NCBI RefSeq assembly: GCF_947501405.1 | Contig: NZ_CANMVK010000001.1 | Location: 372,001-436,000 of the forward strand | Source of the DNA: an uncultured Hoeflea sp. | GTDB taxonomy: Bacteria > Pseudomonadota > Alphaproteobacteria > Rhizobiales > Rhizobiaceae | Reading direction: 5' to 3' | DNA length: 64,000 nucleotides | In this document: piece by piece, positions 5,785 to 11,892 of the stretch | How the letters are laid out: every line of letters begins with the position of its first letter | Numbering within the stretch: position 1 is the stretch's first letter | Program-made: the position numbers and the translations under genes | The notes under the pieces: generated by a model | Seen by the model: only the letters and a program-made list of their open reading frames with translations | What the model was told of the DNA's origin: nothing | The model's database searches: none

Positions 5785-6300
5785 ATGGCGACAGACTATG
5801 AGCAGTTCTACCGTGACAACAAGCAGGGGCTTGGCACTCCTGCCAAACCTTTCGAGGACTTCTTCCAAACCTATGGCAAGTCAGCGGCGCGGATACTCGA
5901 TGTCGGGTGCGGGCAGGGCCGCGATGCGCTGTTCATCGCCCGGCTGGGTCATCAGGTCACGGCGGTGGATCTGTCACCCACCGGGATTGCAGACCTTCGG
6001 GCCGATGCCGCCCGCGAAGGGCTGAGGATCGACGCGCATGTTGGCGATATCCGGACGTTCGACTGGCCGGGACCGTTCGATGTCATCGTGATCGACCGGA
6101 CGCTGCACATGCTTGCCGAAGAAGCGGCGCGGACTGCTGTGCTTGAGCGCCTGCTCTCGCAGACGGTTGAAGGATCATCTGTGCTGATTGCCGATGAGCG
6201 CGCCAATTTGCCGGCCTTTGAGCGCGGTTTCGCTCAATCGGCTGCGACCTGGCGTCCGCTTTACCGCCGTGGCGGTTACATGTTCATGGGCCGGGCCTGA
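5785..6300 (+). CDS. Class I SAM-dependent methyltransferase
   Basis: A compact 171-residue Rossmann methyltransferase of unknown substrate. Motif I is ILDVGCGQGRDALFIARLG, followed by the acidic strand end AVDLS and the motif VIVIDRTLHML. I chose the ATG at 5785 (MATDYEQFYRD), since the longer frame runs back into ligA. It lies 46 bp after ligA and could be read from it. Its 3' end overlaps the convergent radical SAM gene by 25 bp. A small-molecule substrate is likely from its size, but nothing in the sequence identifies it. Confidence 0.82.
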   Translation: MATDYEQFYRDNKQGLGTPAKPFEDFFQTYGKSAARILDVGCGQGRDALFIARLGHQVTAVDLSPTGIADLRADAAREGLRIDAHVGDIRTFDWPGPFDVIVIDRTLHMLAEEAARTAVLERLLSQTVEGSSVLIADERANLPAFERGFAQSAATWRPLYRRGGYMFMGRA

Positions 6301-8411
6301 TCCGCGCTCCCCTGCCACTCGATAAGGCCACGGGATTTTAGCACATGCAGGCTACCGATCGCCAGCTTGCGGCCGCTGATGCCGCTGACTGTGACGCCGC
6401 TTTGCTCCACAGCTCCGGTGATGCCATCGAGATCGAGCCCGTCCCGGCAGGATCTCAAAATCACTTGCTGCAGCGGATCGATTTCGCAGATTTCGATCTT
6501 TTCGGGATCGCGCTCCACCAGCAGGATGCTTGAGCGATCGAGTTCCAGTGATGTCAACGGCGTTTGCCCGCGCACGTGATCAAGCACGTCACGGTAATTG
6601 ACGGGCAGATCGAACAGGTTGACGGTTGGGGCCAACGCCGGTTTCTCCGGATCCGGAACCGGTACTTGCGCGGCGTCCGGCGCGGCCTTCAATTCCGCGC
6701 GTTTGCGCAAGAGTTCCTTGGAAGGCGCTTCGATATCGGCCAGGGCGCGAAGCGCGGAAGCTACGGTCTCATTGTCCGGCAACAGCTCCTGACGGACGAA
6801 ATCGGCAAACCGGCTTTGGAAACTCGAGGTGCAATAATCGGGCGCGATCGCCTCGGCCGGTTCTTTTGTGGCCACCGGGTTGTCGGCGTTCCACTGCCGC
6901 CACCGGTCAAACACATCGACCATGTCGCCATATTCGGTGACCAGCGCCACCGGCAGCCAGCGCAGCCACAGGCCAAGACCCATGAGAAAATCGCGCATCT
7001 CGATGAAATAGTCGCGGCTCATCGCCTCGGTCGGAACCGCGTAGAAATTGACGAACACATCCTTGTGCCCGCGGATCAGCTCGATATCGGCGGGATCCTG
7101 ACGCCAGCCCTGATGGGACATGTCGGAGTATTTGCCGTCGAAATAGAGCGCATCGCGGTGCTGATCGGCAATCGGCGTTTTGGCCAGTGGCGCCAGCACC
7201 GACAATTGCGGCTCGGCATTGTCGATGCGCAGCGAGCGGACGAAGAAATTCGCGGTGTGGGCCAGATCCTCGCGGGTTTCCTCAGGGAAGCCGGTGATCA
7301 GCGCGACGGCCGTGCCCATGCCCAGTCGGCAGGCGGTCTCGATGCTCTGCCAGGCCTCGTCGAGATCGATGTTTTTCTGAATGATCGGCTGCAGCCGCGG
7401 GGAGCCGGTCTCGATGCCGAAGAAGATCTCCCGGCAACCGGCTTGCGCCATCAGTGTGAGCAGTTCCTCGTCGACGCAATCGGTTCGGGCGCTGCAACTC
7501 CAGGTGAAATCATGCCCGGATGCCAACAGGGCCTCGCAGAAGGCGGCCACCTTCTTGCGGTTGACGGTGAACATGTCGTGGACCAGCGTGAAGGCCGTGA
7601 CGCCGTAACGGGCGTTGAGCTCCACCATCTCGCCCACAAGCTTGGCGGGCGATTTGAGCCTGTAGTTGCGGCGGAAGAAATCATTGGTCGAGCAGAATGC
7701 GCAGGCAAAGGGGCAGCCGCGCCCGGCTTCCAGATGCAAGCCGCCGCGTTCGAGCACATAGGGATCGAGCTCGAAAGCGGGCAGGGGGAGATCGTCAAGA
7801 TCGGCAAGCGCGGGGGTATCCGGGTTGCGCATGACCTTGCTGCCGAGCCGGTAGGTGACGCCCTTGTGACCGGCAAGATCCTCAGGGCTGGCGCCGTCGG
7901 CCAGGGCGGTGACAAGTTTGGGAAAACTCACATCGGCCTCACCGCGCACCACATAGTCGACACAGGCGAAATCGCGCAGCGTCGCCTCATCGACCACCGA
8001 GGCTTGCGGACCGCCAAACACGATCTTTGCCTGAGGCCTGGTGCGCTTGACCGTTTCGGCCAGCCTGAGTGTCATCGGGTAGGAACTGCACATGCTGCCA
8101 AAGCCGAAGAGATCAGCGTCGATGGCTCCCAGCAGATCGCGGGCATAGTCGAAAAAATGCGCCAAATCGGGCAGGCGCCCGTCCGTCGAGGGTGCCGAGC
8201 CCTGTTTTGCCGCGTCGGCAAAGGGTTTGAGGAAGTCGACAAACACCTGGTCGAGGTGGAAGATCTCGACCGAAATATCCGCCTGTTTGAGAGACGCCGC
8301 CAGCGCCAGGATGCCGAGATTCGGCCCGGCACGGTCGAGGGCGGCGTTGAGCGTCGATTCAGGATTGATAAAATCGGTAACGGTGAGCGGGCTGATCAGG
8401 CAGACATGCAT
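6276..8411 (-). CDS. B12-binding domain radical SAM protein with C-terminal winged-helix/PqqD-like domain
   Basis: A 711-residue radical SAM enzyme. The N-terminal 150 residues resemble a cobalamin-binding Rossmann domain (MHVCLISPLTV, FGFGSMCSSYPMTLRLAE, KIVFGGPQASVVDEATLRD). The radical SAM core has Cys233, Cys237 and Cys240 in CPFACAFC, followed by FFGIETGSPRLQ and ALITGFPEETREDL. After a Pro-rich linker, the last 100 residues (EICEIDPLQQVIL...VLKSRGLIEW) look like a winged-helix or PqqD/RRE-type domain, which in RiPP enzymes binds leader peptides. The ATG at 8411 has GGAG upstream; a GTG at 8423 is the alternative. It is the third gene of an operon behind two paralogous small proteins, so peptide modification such as C-methylation or cross-linking is inferred. 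A metabolic B12-radical SAM role is the alternative. Confidence 0.88.
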   Translation of the reverse strand: MHVCLISPLTVTDFINPESTLNAALDRAGPNLGILALAASLKQADISVEIFHLDQVFVDFLKPFADAAKQGSAPSTDGRLPDLAHFFDYARDLLGAIDADLFGFGSMCSSYPMTLRLAETVKRTRPQAKIVFGGPQASVVDEATLRDFACVDYVVRGEADVSFPKLVTALADGASPEDLAGHKGVTYRLGSKVMRNPDTPALADLDDLPLPAFELDPYVLERGGLHLEAGRGCPFACAFCSTNDFFRRNYRLKSPAKLVGEMVELNARYGVTAFTLVHDMFTVNRKKVAAFCEALLASGHDFTWSCSARTDCVDEELLTLMAQAGCREIFFGIETGSPRLQPIIQKNIDLDEAWQSIETACRLGMGTAVALITGFPEETREDLAHTANFFVRSLRIDNAEPQLSVLAPLAKTPIADQHRDALYFDGKYSDMSHQGWRQDPADIELIRGHKDVFVNFYAVPTEAMSRDYFIEMRDFLMGLGLWLRWLPVALVTEYGDMVDVFDRWRQWNADNPVATKEPAEAIAPDYCTSSFQSRFADFVRQELLPDNETVASALRALADIEAPSKELLRKRAELKAAPDAAQVPVPDPEKPALAPTVNLFDLPVNYRDVLDHVRGQTPLTSLELDRSSILLVERDPEKIEICEIDPLQQVILRSCRDGLDLDGITGAVEQSGVTVSGISGRKLAIGSLHVLKSRGLIEWQGSADQARPMNM

Positions 8412-8448
8412 GGTATGCTCCACTCTGGTTGCATCGGTCGGGGACCGG

Positions 8449-8679
8449 TCAGTCCTTGGCAGGCAGCGATGTCACCGCCTTGTTCTTTGTCTTGACCTTG
8501 GATGTCTTCTGCTTGGGATTTTCAACCTGAACGCGTTTGGCGTGGGCGGCGGCGCCGCGTTCGCCGCTGGCGATGTCCAGGATGGTGGCGCGCATGGCCT
8601 GCGAGATCTGTTCAAGTTGCGCCGGAGATATCCGGGCATCTTCGGTCCGTGATTTAACCTTCTTGTCTTTTTTGGACAT
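8449..8679 (-). CDS. Small helical protein 2, paralogue of the upstream gene and candidate radical SAM substrate
   Basis: A 76-residue protein, Lys-rich at both ends, with no cysteine. Residues 16-50 (RISPAQLEQISQAM...AHAKRV) align with the same residues of the neighbouring 79-residue protein, sharing the pattern I-x8-I-x2-A-x-R-x4-D-x3-G-x-R-x-A-x-A-x-A-K. The C-terminal third is a basic, Thr/Ser-containing tail (NPKQKTSKVKTKNK...). It lies 37 bp upstream of the radical SAM gene. Position, size and duplication suggest a precursor peptide with a helical leader and variable tail; an accessory or chaperone-like partner is the other possibility. I do not recognise a named family. Confidence 0.75.
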   Translation of the reverse strand: MSKKDKKVKSRTEDARISPAQLEQISQAMRATILDIASGERGAAAHAKRVQVENPKQKTSKVKTKNKAVTSLPAKD

Positions 8680-8726
8680 TACGCCATGCTCCGTCGTGCT
8701 TGTGAGGTGCTAAAGTAATAACCTGA

Positions 8727-8966
8727 TCATCTTCTTGGCGCCGGTTCGGTGCGGACAATCTTTTCAATCGGATAGGTCTTTTCCTGCGCGGTTTCCTGAA
8801 CCTCTTTGGGAACATGTTTTTCCTTGGCCATGGCGCCGGCTGCGCGGGCGCCTTCACTCACATCGACCACACGCGATCGTAAAGCCTCGGCGATTTTTTG
8901 AACTTCTTCTTCGGTGATCTCCATGTTGTCCGGGATCTGGACAACAATTTCGTTTTCATCGGCCAT
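8727..8966 (-). CDS. Small helical protein 1, candidate radical SAM substrate
   Basis: A 79-residue acidic protein, first gene of the operon. Residues 15-50 (MEITEEEVQKIAEALRSRVV...MAKEKH) form an amphipathic helical region shared with the next gene at about one-third identity. The tail (KEVQETAQEKTYPIEKIVRTEPAPRR) differs completely from its paralogue. The ATG has a good GGGAG at 8973-8977. The gap to the next gene is 47 bp. A conserved helical front with a divergent tail is the pattern expected of RiPP leader/core peptides, but no cleavage motif such as GG is visible. Confidence 0.77.
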   Translation of the reverse strand: MADENEIVVQIPDNMEITEEEVQKIAEALRSRVVDVSEGARAAGAMAKEKHVPKEVQETAQEKTYPIEKIVRTEPAPRR

Positions 8967-9336: not shown

Positions 9337-9969
9337 ATGGAAATCCTGTCTACTGTGCTGTTTTTGCTGTTGGCGGCGGCGCTTATCTATATATGGCTGA
9401 GCGCCAGGCGTGGTGGCGGCAACGCCCCGGGCCGCAAGCCTCCGGAGCCTGAACCAGAGAGTGAATCGGGCACCTATTACGAGATCGCCAATGTGTGCCA
9501 CACGCTGCAGCGGATCGGTGCGACAAACCAATACTCGAGGCAGGTGTTCGCGAGCGCGAATGTTGCGCGGGTTTTCAAGATCACCAGCACCACCGTCAAC
9601 GGCTTGCCGGCCGGTATGGAAGCGCTTTTGACCTTCAACTAGCGCATTTCCACTCGAAGTTGGGTCAGAAATTGCTGCCGCTCGCGATGCTCGCCCGCAT
9701 TTTCTGACACACTACTGATTCAAGCTGAAGTGGAATTGCGCTATCTGCCGCATGGCAGACCTGTGCCTTCGGGCCAGATCAAATCGAACACGCCGCTGTC
9801 CGACGGCCAATCGACAGCCGAGTTCAACGGCATGACCGGGATCATCCCGCGGGCGATATACCCGAACGACTTGATTAAATGGGAAGCCACCGTTTCAGCC
9901 ACATCCGGCGGACCGGCGGAACTGCCGGAAACCATCGTGGTTTGCAGCGATGTCAAGCGTGACGCCTGA
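9337..9969 (+). pseudogene. Membrane-anchored hypothetical protein split by a MITE
   Basis: The 5' part (9337-9642) encodes an N-terminal membrane anchor (residues 3-22), a Gly/Pro/Glu-rich linker and a segment ending ALLTFN, then TAG. The TAG is made from the TA at 9640-9641 plus the first base of a 100-bp inserted element. The 3' part continues in the same frame after the element (YLPHGRPVPSGQ...CSDVKRDA). Removing 9642-9741 plus one TA joins ...TFN-YLPHGRP... as a single 176-residue protein. A GTG inside the element's right end (9730) could restart a 79-residue fragment. The intact product would be membrane-tethered with a soluble domain facing out; its function is unknown. Confidence 0.8.
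9642..9741. mobile_element. 100-bp MITE with TA target-site duplication
   Basis: The element has terminal inverted repeats GCGCATTTCCACT and AGTGGAATTGCGC (12 of 13 pairs) and is bordered on both sides by TA (9640-9641 and 9742-9743). A TA duplication is the mark of IS630/Tc1-mariner transposition. A second inner stem pairs GTCAGAAA (9664-9671) with TTTCTGAC (9701-9708) and extends with one mismatch, so the whole element can fold as a hairpin. It encodes no transposase, so it is non-autonomous. No second copy is evident in this window. Confidence 0.82.
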
Positions 9970-9986: not shown

Positions 9987-11474
9987 TCAGGCAAGTGCTG
10001 CGCGCAGGATGACGAACAGCACGCCTGACAACACCGCGGCGGCCGGTACGGTGATGACCCAGGCGGCGACGATTTGCAGGAAATGCGAGCGCCGCACCAG
10101 TTTGCGGCGGCGCTGGTCTTCCTGCCGGCGCACCGGATCGGCGCGGTTGATGCGATGACGCGCCACATATTCGGCGCGGCGGCTGGATTTTTCGGTGTAC
10201 CACTCGCGAAAGAAGCCAACACCGAACACCGCTCCGACCGCGATGTGCGTGGAGCTCACCGGCAGTCCGAGCCAGGAAGCGATGATCACGGTGATCGCGG
10301 CAGACAAGGCCACGCAATAGGCCCGCATCGGATTGAGTTTGGTGATCTGGTTGCCGACCATGCGGATCAGCTTGGGCCCGAACAGCAAAAGGCCCACGGA
10401 GATTCCGACAGCGCCCACCGCCATAACCCAGAGCGGGATCACCACCTTGGGCGCCACTTCCCCAAGCTCGGCGGTGTGAACGATGGCCGCGAGCGGCCCC
10501 ACCGCATTGGCCACATCATTGGCCCCGTGGGCGAAAGACAAGAGTGCGGCAGAGAAAATCAGCGGCAGGCCGAACAGTTTTCTGAGCGACTGGTTGCGGT
10601 TCTCAAGGCCCTGCGATTGCCGGGCGATCACCGGCCGGGCGGCGATCCAGGCCAGCATCGCCGCCGCAAGACCGATCAGCAATGCTGCGCCAAAGGAGAT
10701 CTGGACCACCTGCTTGAGACCCTTGATCGACAGATAGGCTGCAAAGGCGCCGACCATGATGGCGATCAGCACCGGCACCCAGCGGCGGGCGGCGGCAATC
10801 TTGTCGTCCTGATAGATGATGGCGGATTTGATGAAGGCCAGAAAGGCTGCGGCGATCACGCCGCCGAGAAAGGGCGAGATCACCCAGCTCGCGGCGATGC
10901 CGCCCATGGTCGGCCAGTTGACCGCATCAACGCCGGCGGCTGCGATGCCCGCGCCCATCACGCCGCCGACAATGGAATGGGTGGTCGACACCGGTGCACT
11001 GAGCCAGGTGGCGAGATGGATCCACATCGCTGCTGAAACCAATGCCGCCATCATGGCCGCGATGAACACGTTGGGATCGGACACGGCGACCGGATCGATG
11101 ATGCCCTTGGAAATAGTCGACACCACATCGCCGCCGGCGATCAGCGCACCGGCGCTTTCGAAGACGGCGGCAATCGCCAGCGCCACGCCCAGCGTCATGG
11201 CCTGCGAGCCCACGGCGGGTCCGACATTGTTGGCGACATCATTGGCGCCGATGTTGAGCGCCATATAGGCGCCGATCGTCGCCGCGGCGATAATGACAAC
11301 GGCGCCGGGCTGGCCGGTGACGAACACCGCGGCAATGACCGCGCACAGGAAGATGAACACCAGCGCGATGCCCGGGGTGACGAGACCGCGATTGATCAAT
11401 CCGGTGGCCTCGCCCATCACCGCAAATTTGTCGAGGTCCTTGTCGAGGGTCGGTTTGCGGAAGGTGTCTGTCAT
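9987..11474 (-). CDS. pit: PiT-family inorganic phosphate transporter
   Basis: A 495-residue low-affinity phosphate:cation symporter of the inner membrane. Both inverted-repeat halves carry the PiT signature: GANDVANNVGPA near residue 75 and GANDVANAVGPL in the second half. About ten to eleven hydrophobic segments are visible. The N-terminus (MTDTFRKPTLDKDLDKFA) matches alphaproteobacterial members with a short cytoplasmic extension. It converges with the MITE-split gene and diverges from the unknown operon at 11893. No Pho box was identified. Confidence 0.92.
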   Translation of the reverse strand: MTDTFRKPTLDKDLDKFAVMGEATGLINRGLVTPGIALVFIFLCAVIAAVFVTGQPGAVVIIAAATIGAYMALNIGANDVANNVGPAVGSQAMTLGVALAIAAVFESAGALIAGGDVVSTISKGIIDPVAVSDPNVFIAAMMAALVSAAMWIHLATWLSAPVSTTHSIVGGVMGAGIAAAGVDAVNWPTMGGIAASWVISPFLGGVIAAAFLAFIKSAIIYQDDKIAAARRWVPVLIAIMVGAFAAYLSIKGLKQVVQISFGAALLIGLAAAMLAWIAARPVIARQSQGLENRNQSLRKLFGLPLIFSAALLSFAHGANDVANAVGPLAAIVHTAELGEVAPKVVIPLWVMAVGAVGISVGLLLFGPKLIRMVGNQITKLNPMRAYCVALSAAITVIIASWLGLPVSSTHIAVGAVFGVGFFREWYTEKSSRRAEYVARHRINRADPVRRQEDQRRRKLVRRSHFLQIVAAWVITVPAAAVLSGVLFVILRAALA

Positions 11475-11892
11475 GAAAGGGAAATCCCGGGTTCAACGCC
11501 GACCGGCCTTAACCGCTCCTGGCAGCAATGCGGCTTCGGCACGGCGATGGCTGGTGATGGTATCGTGCGGTTCGGCAGAGGCTCATCAAATGCGTTGCGA
11601 AGCGCACTTAGCACGAAAGGTGCGCGGTCATGGCGGAGGCGTTGCCCGTTTGCCGGCTCGCGGTCAAGATCGCAATCCACCGAAGAGATCACAAAGCCGG
11701 GTTTTTGAACTGATTTCAGGTAAAATCCCGCCAATCGGCGATCGGGTGCACAGTGAAGACGGGTTGTGGGCCGGGCCGGTTTTCGACCAACAGGTTTGGA
11801 GAACGCGCGCTTATGCGATAAGCTTTTTCCATAGCGACGACCTTGGTGCAGCAGATTTAAGGCCAAAAGAAATTGATTGCGGGGACAAGAGC
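11475..11892. other. Intergenic region between divergent pit and unknown operon
   Basis: This 418-bp stretch lies between the start of the phosphate transporter (minus) and the GTG at 11893 (plus). A plus-strand frame is open through it, but its translation here is Arg/Pro/Ser-rich and unlike the downstream protein, so I treat it as non-coding. The last 150 bp become AT-richer. I see no clear operator or RNA. Confidence 0.4.

Follow-up and report, generated by a model that had tools for sequence, protein, structure and literature searches.

Small genes lying close upstream of a gene for a cobalamin (B12)-binding radical S-adenosylmethionine (SAM) enzyme raise the question of whether their products are the substrates of that enzyme. 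Such an arrangement occurs in the window analysed here, a stretch of 64,000 nucleotides from an uncultured Hoeflea sp. (contig NZ_CANMVK010000001.1, positions 372,001 to 436,000), as a candidate cassette of three minus-strand genes that encode two small proteins, P1 and P2, followed by the enzyme. A first-pass annotation had read these genes as a candidate undescribed peptide-modification operon, and this reading is now supported by the association of a leader with the enzyme, the predicted fold of a recognition domain, the divergence of the tails of the small proteins and the nearness of the enzyme to ApyD, which acts in the biosynthesis of a ribosomally synthesized and post-translationally modified peptide (RiPP). 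Altogether, we favour, at a probability of about 0.72, a stand-alone RiPP-type cassette in which a RiPP recognition element (RRE) would bind the leader and the B12 radical SAM enzyme would modify the tail.

The first line of evidence comes from the small proteins. In comparisons scored against 5000 shuffles, the front ends of P1 and P2 were found to be related (z 10.7, with 0 of 5000 shuffles as good) and their tails to share no kinship beyond chance (z 1.7, p 0.076), as the first-pass annotation had described them. Relatives of the window enzyme at 37-47% identity were collected at nine distinct loci, in Bradyrhizobium (L017-L019, L022 and L030), Natronohydrobacter (L020) and the acidobacterial phylum (L021, L055 and L056). 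A same-strand small open reading frame (ORF) is located directly upstream of the enzyme gene at 10 of 10 distinct loci, the window included, with a length of 66 residues in the five Bradyrhizobium loci, 57 in L020, 70 in L021, and 126 and 121 in L055 and L056, respectively. Since small ORFs are common in such DNA, kinship of the upstream ORF counts more than its presence. The P1 leader gave z values of 7.8 against the L021 precursor, 4.3 against Bradyrhizobium (L022 copy) and 4.2 against Natronohydrobacter, and the same Bradyrhizobium leader scored 16.9 against Natronohydrobacter and 5.1 against L021. Furthermore, three hidden Markov models (HMMs) of the precursors were built without window sequences and each was ranked over the 705 window ORFs; the model of seven non-window precursors placed P1 first (expectation value, E, 7.6e-4) and P2 second (0.012), as did a model of L020 and L021 only (3.6e-6 and 0.11). 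On the strength of these ranks and shuffle scores, the leader is judged common to 8 of the 10 loci (7 of the 9 outside the window), the five Bradyrhizobium leaders being tested through one copy. Enzyme homologues without the small proteins had been named earlier as evidence against the operon; an upstream small ORF stands at all nine further loci, and leader kinship extends to seven of them only.

With an HMM of nine precursors, window included, none of the ten outgroup loci of the enzyme gave a match (best E 0.18); these loci (L010, L011, L032, L033, L034, L035, L036, L057, L058 and L059) were left out of the co-occurrence count. Each of the seven other carrier genomes held a single strong precursor match, adjacent to the enzyme, six of these seven matches being rows of the query alignment itself, and other matches had E values of at least 0.3. 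In the genome of the window, no precursor copies were found beyond P1 and P2. Judged by eye, a strand (VVVQIPD in P1, VVLTLPD in Bradyrhizobium) precedes a helix in the leader, in agreement with the helical front noted at first pass. A scan of eight precursors against NCBIfam at E up to 1 matched four families once each and no leader family; NHLP and Nif11 are presumably among the leader families modelled there.

The second line of evidence is the enzyme, which combines a B12-binding domain with a radical SAM domain carrying a CxxxCxxC motif (Table 1) and thus belongs to the class B (B12) radical SAM enzymes. The cobalamin-like N-terminal domain proposed at first pass scores above its Pfam cut-off, and the motif lies where it had been placed once residues are counted from the ATG start; its three cysteines are conserved without exception in the 7 enzymes aligned. 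Among 13 matches to PF04055 in the genome, this enzyme is the sole one inside the window. The model of the whole enzyme (predicted local distance difference test, pLDDT, 79.7) retrieved TsrM, TokK, CysS, AprD4, OxsB and MgmA in its first 17 Foldseek rows, 12 of which are methyltransferases; CysS is taken here to be one. The best NCBIfam model was that of the RiPP enzyme ApyD (NF050148), at 351 bits against a cut-off of 750 and over residues 15-525 only, with scores of 373, 341 and 373 for the L020, L021 and L022 enzymes and 1113.8 for a true ApyD at L032. No cut-off was reached by the window enzyme among the best 25 of the 28 models matched, so that a known metabolic family, the finding that was to speak against a peptide substrate, did not emerge there. 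The RiPP C-methyltransferase model rSAM_ocin_1 (TIGR03975) gave 121.8 bits, below its cut-off of 281.85. A tree built from 20 enzymes unites the ten family members in one group (98/96); the L032 ApyD, itself on a long branch, is placed nearest to this group, though not firmly (80/84). By these sequence comparisons the family is placed beside, not inside, ApyD. The enzymes of the window and of L021, a metagenome bin, are sisters in the tree (100/100), and because this pairing crosses phyla it points to horizontal transfer.

The third line of evidence is a predicted recognition domain at the C-terminus of the enzyme. Its AlphaFold2 model consists of a beta hairpin and three helices, and a Foldseek search against the PDB gave TglHI at ranks 1 and 2 (E 1e-4 and 4e-4), followed at ranks 3-6 by NGO1945, lasso B1 with leader, PqqD and again lasso B1 with leader (E 0.007-0.06), with identities of 10-18% over ranks 1-6; further down came ThcOx and additional lasso B1 entries, ahead of other proteins. 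NGO1945 and ThcOx are assumed to belong to, or resemble, RiPP enzymes. Among seven family members, the ApyI model matched five at E up to 10 (best 2.4e-9), and PqqD models matched four in Pfam (best 6.9e-5) and up to five in NCBIfam (best 0.0011); PKMT_2nd, a winged-helix model from a methyltransferase family, also matched five (best 0.0046). The domain is predicted from the model to fold like the RiPP recognition elements of TglHI, lasso B1 and PqqD. This fold agrees with the winged-helix/PqqD-like domain anticipated by the first-pass annotation, and HMM matches to ApyI and PqqD occur in relatives, not in the window copy.

Behind the leader, the tails of the five Bradyrhizobium copies read RRRIVVVVVVVIVF, invariant in protein while the codons vary; the Natronohydrobacter protein ends in NVSVIVTVVIVF, and the L021 tail is K/T-rich. 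Over residues 48-61, no nonsynonymous difference occurs in any of the 10 pairs of Bradyrhizobium copies, and synonymous variation is present at 6 of 14 codons (3 of 11 in the hydrophobic run). Just past position 61, four of five residues vary, and over the whole Bradyrhizobium precursor gene the proportion of differences is 0-0.078 at nonsynonymous sites (pN) and 0.080-0.590 at synonymous sites (pS). The lack of amino acid change at the Val run, together with synonymous codon variation, fits selection on that run, as gauged by simple counts over a small sample of five related copies. By shuffling, the Val tails of Bradyrhizobium and Natronohydrobacter are weakly alike (p 0.016). P2 and the L021 precursor both end in K/T-rich tails; common descent of these was weighed and then rejected (z 0.6, p 0.29). 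Tail type tracks the enzyme tree, the window grouping with L021 (100/100) and Natronohydrobacter with Bradyrhizobium (85/75), thin evidence with two lineages for each type. The tails contain no Cys and at most one aromatic residue.

In Bradyrhizobium, a retropepsin-like protein with a DTGAS motif is encoded convergently to the enzyme at 5 of 5 loci (L017-L019, L022 and L030). Its gene, counted as homologues at E up to 1e-30, was found in 3 of 60 Bradyrhizobium genomes, which were inferred to lie within the 195 searched for the cassette; these are 3 of 3 cassette carriers and 0 of 57 others, and the gene next to the protease has matches in 55 of the 60 genomes (E up to 1e-60). For these homologues, a Fisher test calculated by hand and not corrected for kinship gave a p of about 3e-5. 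Given this co-occurrence, a released peptide is plausible in Bradyrhizobium, where the protease is a candidate leader peptidase. The convergent slot that it occupies there is held in the window by a class I methyltransferase. Two further neighbours were set aside: a P450-like ORF (by eye) upstream of 2 of the 5 Bradyrhizobium loci, with an ion-channel gene between, and a protease match at E 0.0005 in the L020 flank, in a frame antisense to another ORF and taken as chance.

From these features we infer the binding, the choice of residue, the chemistry, the later cleavage, the product and its role as follows. P1 and P2 would be precursor proteins whose conserved front serves as the leader; this leader may dock, as an added strand, on the modelled RRE at the C-terminus of the enzyme, and docking would carry the variable tail to the [4Fe-4S]/SAM/methylcobalamin site. 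There, an unactivated carbon of a side chain would lose a hydrogen to a 5'-deoxyadenosyl radical and receive a methyl group from methylcobalamin; the carbon in question would most likely be C-beta in residues of the Val/Ile/Thr type. Cleavage would come later, by the retropepsin-like protease in Bradyrhizobium; none was recognised in the window among the proteins scanned. Methylation is, by analogy, the probable though far from assured step, and C-beta methylation is the best guess because ApyD is described as making beta-methyltyrosine (PMC10635010) and PoyC as methylating the C-beta of Val (PMC5682303). A bolder extension is put forward tentatively, as possible and doubtful: the family may represent a new RiPP class, in which a single RRE-fused B12 radical SAM enzyme would beta-C-methylate beta-branched runs, the Bradyrhizobium IVVVVVVVIV would become a tert-leucine-rich strand freed by a dedicated retropepsin-like protease, and related cassettes that differ in their cores would have moved between the Alphaproteobacteria and the acidobacterial phylum.

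Several points weigh against a RiPP-type cassette. Taken by itself, P2 is weakly like the leaders from outside the window (z 2.3 against L022, 2.3 against L021 and 0.6 against L020; p 0.03, 0.04 and 0.26), and the precursor HMM is weaker once L055 and L056 are added, with P1 at 0.044 (rank 1) and P2 at 3.2 (rank 5). The L055 and L056 enzymes are family members at 37% identity, and their upstream small proteins, close kin of each other (z 38.5), score from -1.7 to 1.2 against the leader, except for 3.1 and 4.1 against P2, and are not matched by the leader HMM of nine precursors; the two loci may hold a diverged form or be true exceptions, relatives that lack this leader. In the window, the tails are rich in Lys and Glu; they present no evident target, and homology to the L021 tail was not detected. 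In addition, no HMM family of Pfam or NCBIfam matches the C-terminal domain of the window enzyme at E up to 10, the majority of its RRE fold matches are weak (E below 0.001 for the two TglHI rows only), and the ApyI model, with a cut-off of 200, gives 46.9 bits for L022, 25.9 for L021 and no match for L020 at 1e-5. Finally, methylation is not the chemistry of every B12 radical SAM enzyme; PbsB, for one, is described as a cross-linking enzyme (PMC12257519).

The small proteins might instead be modified as intact functional proteins, like the substrate of the methyl-coenzyme M reductase methylases, with no released peptide. We consider this unlikely: none of the eight window proteins covered by the scan was recognised as a protease or exporter, NCBIfam gave no leader match and the protein methylase MgmA is among the fold matches, all of which agrees with it, but a conserved leader joined to variable tails follows the logic of precursors, and the protease that accompanies the cassette in Bradyrhizobium argues for release. 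Next comes RiPP-like docking followed by radical chemistry other than methylation, namely cross-linking, epimerisation or dehydrogenation of tail residues, to which we give a rather low probability. The PbsB report describes a C-C cross-link, with no obvious role for cobalamin in its authors' view (PMC12257519), and the best solved sequence relative of the window enzyme is the diol dehydratase AprD4, also present in the first 17 fold rows; methyltransferases nevertheless fill most of those rows, ApyD, the nearest family, methylates, and the tails lack the usual partners for cross-linking (Cys and aromatic residues). It is improbable that the small proteins, without being the substrate themselves, act as carrier or adaptor for a small molecule or for a substrate added at the C-terminus, as in a pearlin-like scaffold. 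TglHI, the top fold match of the RRE domain, works on a carrier peptide; however, reading the ORF lists of the flanks by eye, with no search aimed at it, revealed no peptide aminoacyl-tRNA ligase, and the Bradyrhizobium tail is unchanging though non-homologous to the window and L021 tails. Disfavoured, and very improbable, is a metabolic B12 radical SAM enzyme of BchE, HpnJ or P-methyltransferase type that neighbours the small genes by chance, as its NCBIfam matches to BchE (144.5 bits), HpnJ (137.7) and the PhpK type (103.1) fall far under the cut-offs of 481, 578 and 600, a related small gene lies upstream at 8 of 10 loci with otherwise different flanks in two phyla, and the enzyme bears an RRE-like domain.

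The favoured RiPP-type cassette can be set beside known systems. ApyD of the aminopyruvatide pathway is likewise described as a B12 radical SAM enzyme that contains an RRE and modifies a RiPP precursor (PMC10635010), and is the nearest family by score and, not firmly, in the tree, whereas the window enzyme stays below half of its model cut-off and in a separate group. Aminopyruvatide clusters contain a multinuclear non-heme iron-dependent oxidative enzyme (MNIO, 100%), a methyltransferase and often a P450; here, no MNIO or P450 is present among the eight window proteins scanned. The methyltransferase there is ApyS, and here a convergent class I methyltransferase is present. The aminopyruvatide precursor has a central CBX2-3G motif and a C-terminal Asp, whereas P1 and P2, as the first-pass annotation had noted, contain no Cys, and only P2 ends in Asp (P1 in Arg). 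As an observation in its own right, L032 (389-5826, in a Bradyrhizobium genome) carries an aminopyruvatide-like cluster with ApyH, ApyI and ApyD over their cut-offs and an ApyO-like P450 slightly below its own (484.7 against 525 bits). For PoyB/PoyC of the polytheonamide pathway and the bottromycin C-methylases, B12 radical SAM C-beta methylation including that of Val is described (PMC5682303, PMC11285071); the window enzyme differs in having CxxxCxxC, not Cx7Cx2C, in a leader outside the NCBIfam families and in having no second radical SAM gene in the window. PbsB, likewise of the B12 radical SAM type, acts in a biphenomycin-like RiPP pathway and is described as cross-linking aromatic residues after MNIO action (PMC12257519), whereas the tails here lack an aromatic pair and the scan of eight window proteins recognised no MNIO. 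PqqD, lasso B1 (TfuB1/TbiB1), TglI and ApyI share the fold of the C-terminal domain, with HMM matches in the relatives, and differ in that the RRE of the window is fused to the B12 radical SAM enzyme. A literature search of titles and abstract openings, with subscription papers mostly outside it, showed no such cassette, no Val-tail RiPP and no retropepsin RiPP protease among the matches listed, nor was a RiPP precedent for a retropepsin-like protease among them.

The cassette is sparsely distributed. A scan of one genome per species, covering 84,980 species and using two short peptide patterns taken from an alignment of two sequences, recovered six enzyme relatives at 41-47% identity; because it used these two patterns only, relatives can be missed, and L055 and L056 were found otherwise. 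Genome searches added one Bradyrhizobium locus and two in the phylum of L021. Duplicates were merged, L012 being equal to L022 and L031 to L018 letter for letter in precursor and enzyme, with L016 and L025 at the same place as L012 and L027 at the same place as L031. In the window's family, the cassette was found in 1 of 297 genomes, namely that of the window; it was further found in 2 of 397 of its order with a full-length enzyme (own included, with 2 further partial matches) and 1 of 385 of its class (own), as well as in 3 of 195 Bradyrhizobium genomes (2 further distant matches), 3 of 247 of the L021 phylum (1 further match) and 1 of 248 of the L020 family (2 further matches). The flanks were matched in 12 of 12 congeners of the window's genus, and in the nine examined LigA and Pit are present and the ligA-pit interval holds no match to the enzyme, P1, P2 or the convergent methyltransferase. 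The simplest reading is an insertion of the block, including the methyltransferase, in the window's strain; its loss elsewhere is a less simple possibility. Single-sequence scans of genome contigs and viral contigs gave no relative, nor did a profile scan of viral contigs, and tblastn of P1 found no match in plasmids. A distant enzyme match occurred in 143 plasmid records, two of which were fetched, L010 from Sinorhizobium and L011 from Mesorhizobium (29-31% identity); both were rejected as family members, lying outside the ten-enzyme group and beside decarboxylase/racemase, radical SAM and, in L011, transketolase genes.

Within the window, the three minus-strand genes are as tightly spaced as first described, with gaps of 47 bp between P1 and P2 and 37 bp from P2 to the enzyme ATG. 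That ATG, at 8411, is the most likely start of the enzyme, preferred because of a GGAG upstream and of agreement with the starts of relatives. The 3' ends of the enzyme and the class I methyltransferase overlap by 25 bp; no convergent methyltransferase was noticed beside the enzyme at other loci when ORF lists were read by eye. A Pfam scan of eight window proteins assigned YfiO, LigA, the class I methyltransferase and PHO4 phosphate permease, leaving four ORFs without a family, and recognised no protease or exporter among those eight, to which it was confined. The first-pass statement that neither is adjacent therefore stands for these proteins, and in Bradyrhizobium it is offset by the co-occurring retropepsin-like protease.

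Table 1. Positions of the candidate cassette, its domains and related features
Feature	Sequence	Position	Strand	Remarks
P1, candidate precursor, 79 aa	Window	8727..8966	-	Putative leader ~residues 7-36 (8859-8948), tail ~46-79
P2, paralogous candidate precursor, 76 aa	Window	8449..8679	-	Lys/Thr-rich tail
B12-binding radical SAM enzyme, 711 aa from ATG	Window	6276..8411	-	C-terminal RRE-like domain
Longer enzyme frame from GTG, 715 aa	Window	6276..8423	-	
B12-binding domain, residues 100-170 (715-aa frame)	Window	7914..8126	-	PF02310, 47.2 bits, cut-off 32.1
Radical SAM domain, residues 233-393	Window	7245..7727	-	PF04055, 83.8 bits, cut-off 29.5
CxxxCxxC motif	Window	7692-7715	-	C237-C244 from GTG = 233-240 from ATG
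RRE/PqqD-like winged-helix domain (predicted), residues 591-715	Window	6276..6653	-	AlphaFold2 pLDDT 86.8
Class I methyltransferase	Window	5785..6300	+	PF13649, 63.8 bits (query from 5779); convergent
Retropepsin-like aspartyl protease	L018	10063-10512	-	Pfam Asp_protease_2
126-aa Lys-rich small protein	L055	6748-7128	-	Upstream of family enzyme
121-aa Lys-rich small protein	L056	4377-4742	+	Upstream of family enzyme

Some further observations concern more distant relatives and the surroundings of the cassette. L058 and L059 sit in RiPP-like settings: L058 encodes a repeat protein with (GMGGMQDxAAVKYLCTSVA)-type units (11019-11483, minus strand), a possible multi-core RiPP precursor whose neighbours include a radical SAM protein, an S8 peptidase and the distant B12 radical SAM relative, and L059 a 76-aa Frankia_peptide-like ORF (7317-7547, minus strand; 31.9 bits, cut-off 48) upstream of radical SAM and B12 radical SAM proteins. 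In the rhizobial plasmids L010 and L011 and in L033 from Bradyrhizobium (by eye), a B12 radical SAM gene precedes a decarboxylase/racemase-like gene, and the gene ahead of it is annotated as radical SAM in L010 and L011; this arrangement is perhaps another uncharacterised cassette. In the window, a dispersed repeat of about 105 bp (9636-9743) has at least 15 further copies in the genome at 94-99% identity and might be a small palindromic mobile repeat, perhaps hairpin-like because an Rfam microRNA model matches weakly (29/79 bits, a match taken as chance).

If the favoured reading is true, the cassette would be a minimal peptide-modification system, consisting of one enzyme with its own recognition domain and one or two precursors. 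In Bradyrhizobium, where invariant poly-Val tails accompany a B12 radical SAM enzyme, methylation at C-beta of a long series of neighbouring Val residues is open to a direct test, a modification that, to our knowledge, is known only from larger pathways such as polytheonamide, and maturation by the linked retropepsin-like protease would be out of the ordinary. Placed beside ApyD in the tree, the family would also help to show how RRE-fused B12 enzymes moved to new substrates. The cassette points to an unstudied kind of modified peptide.

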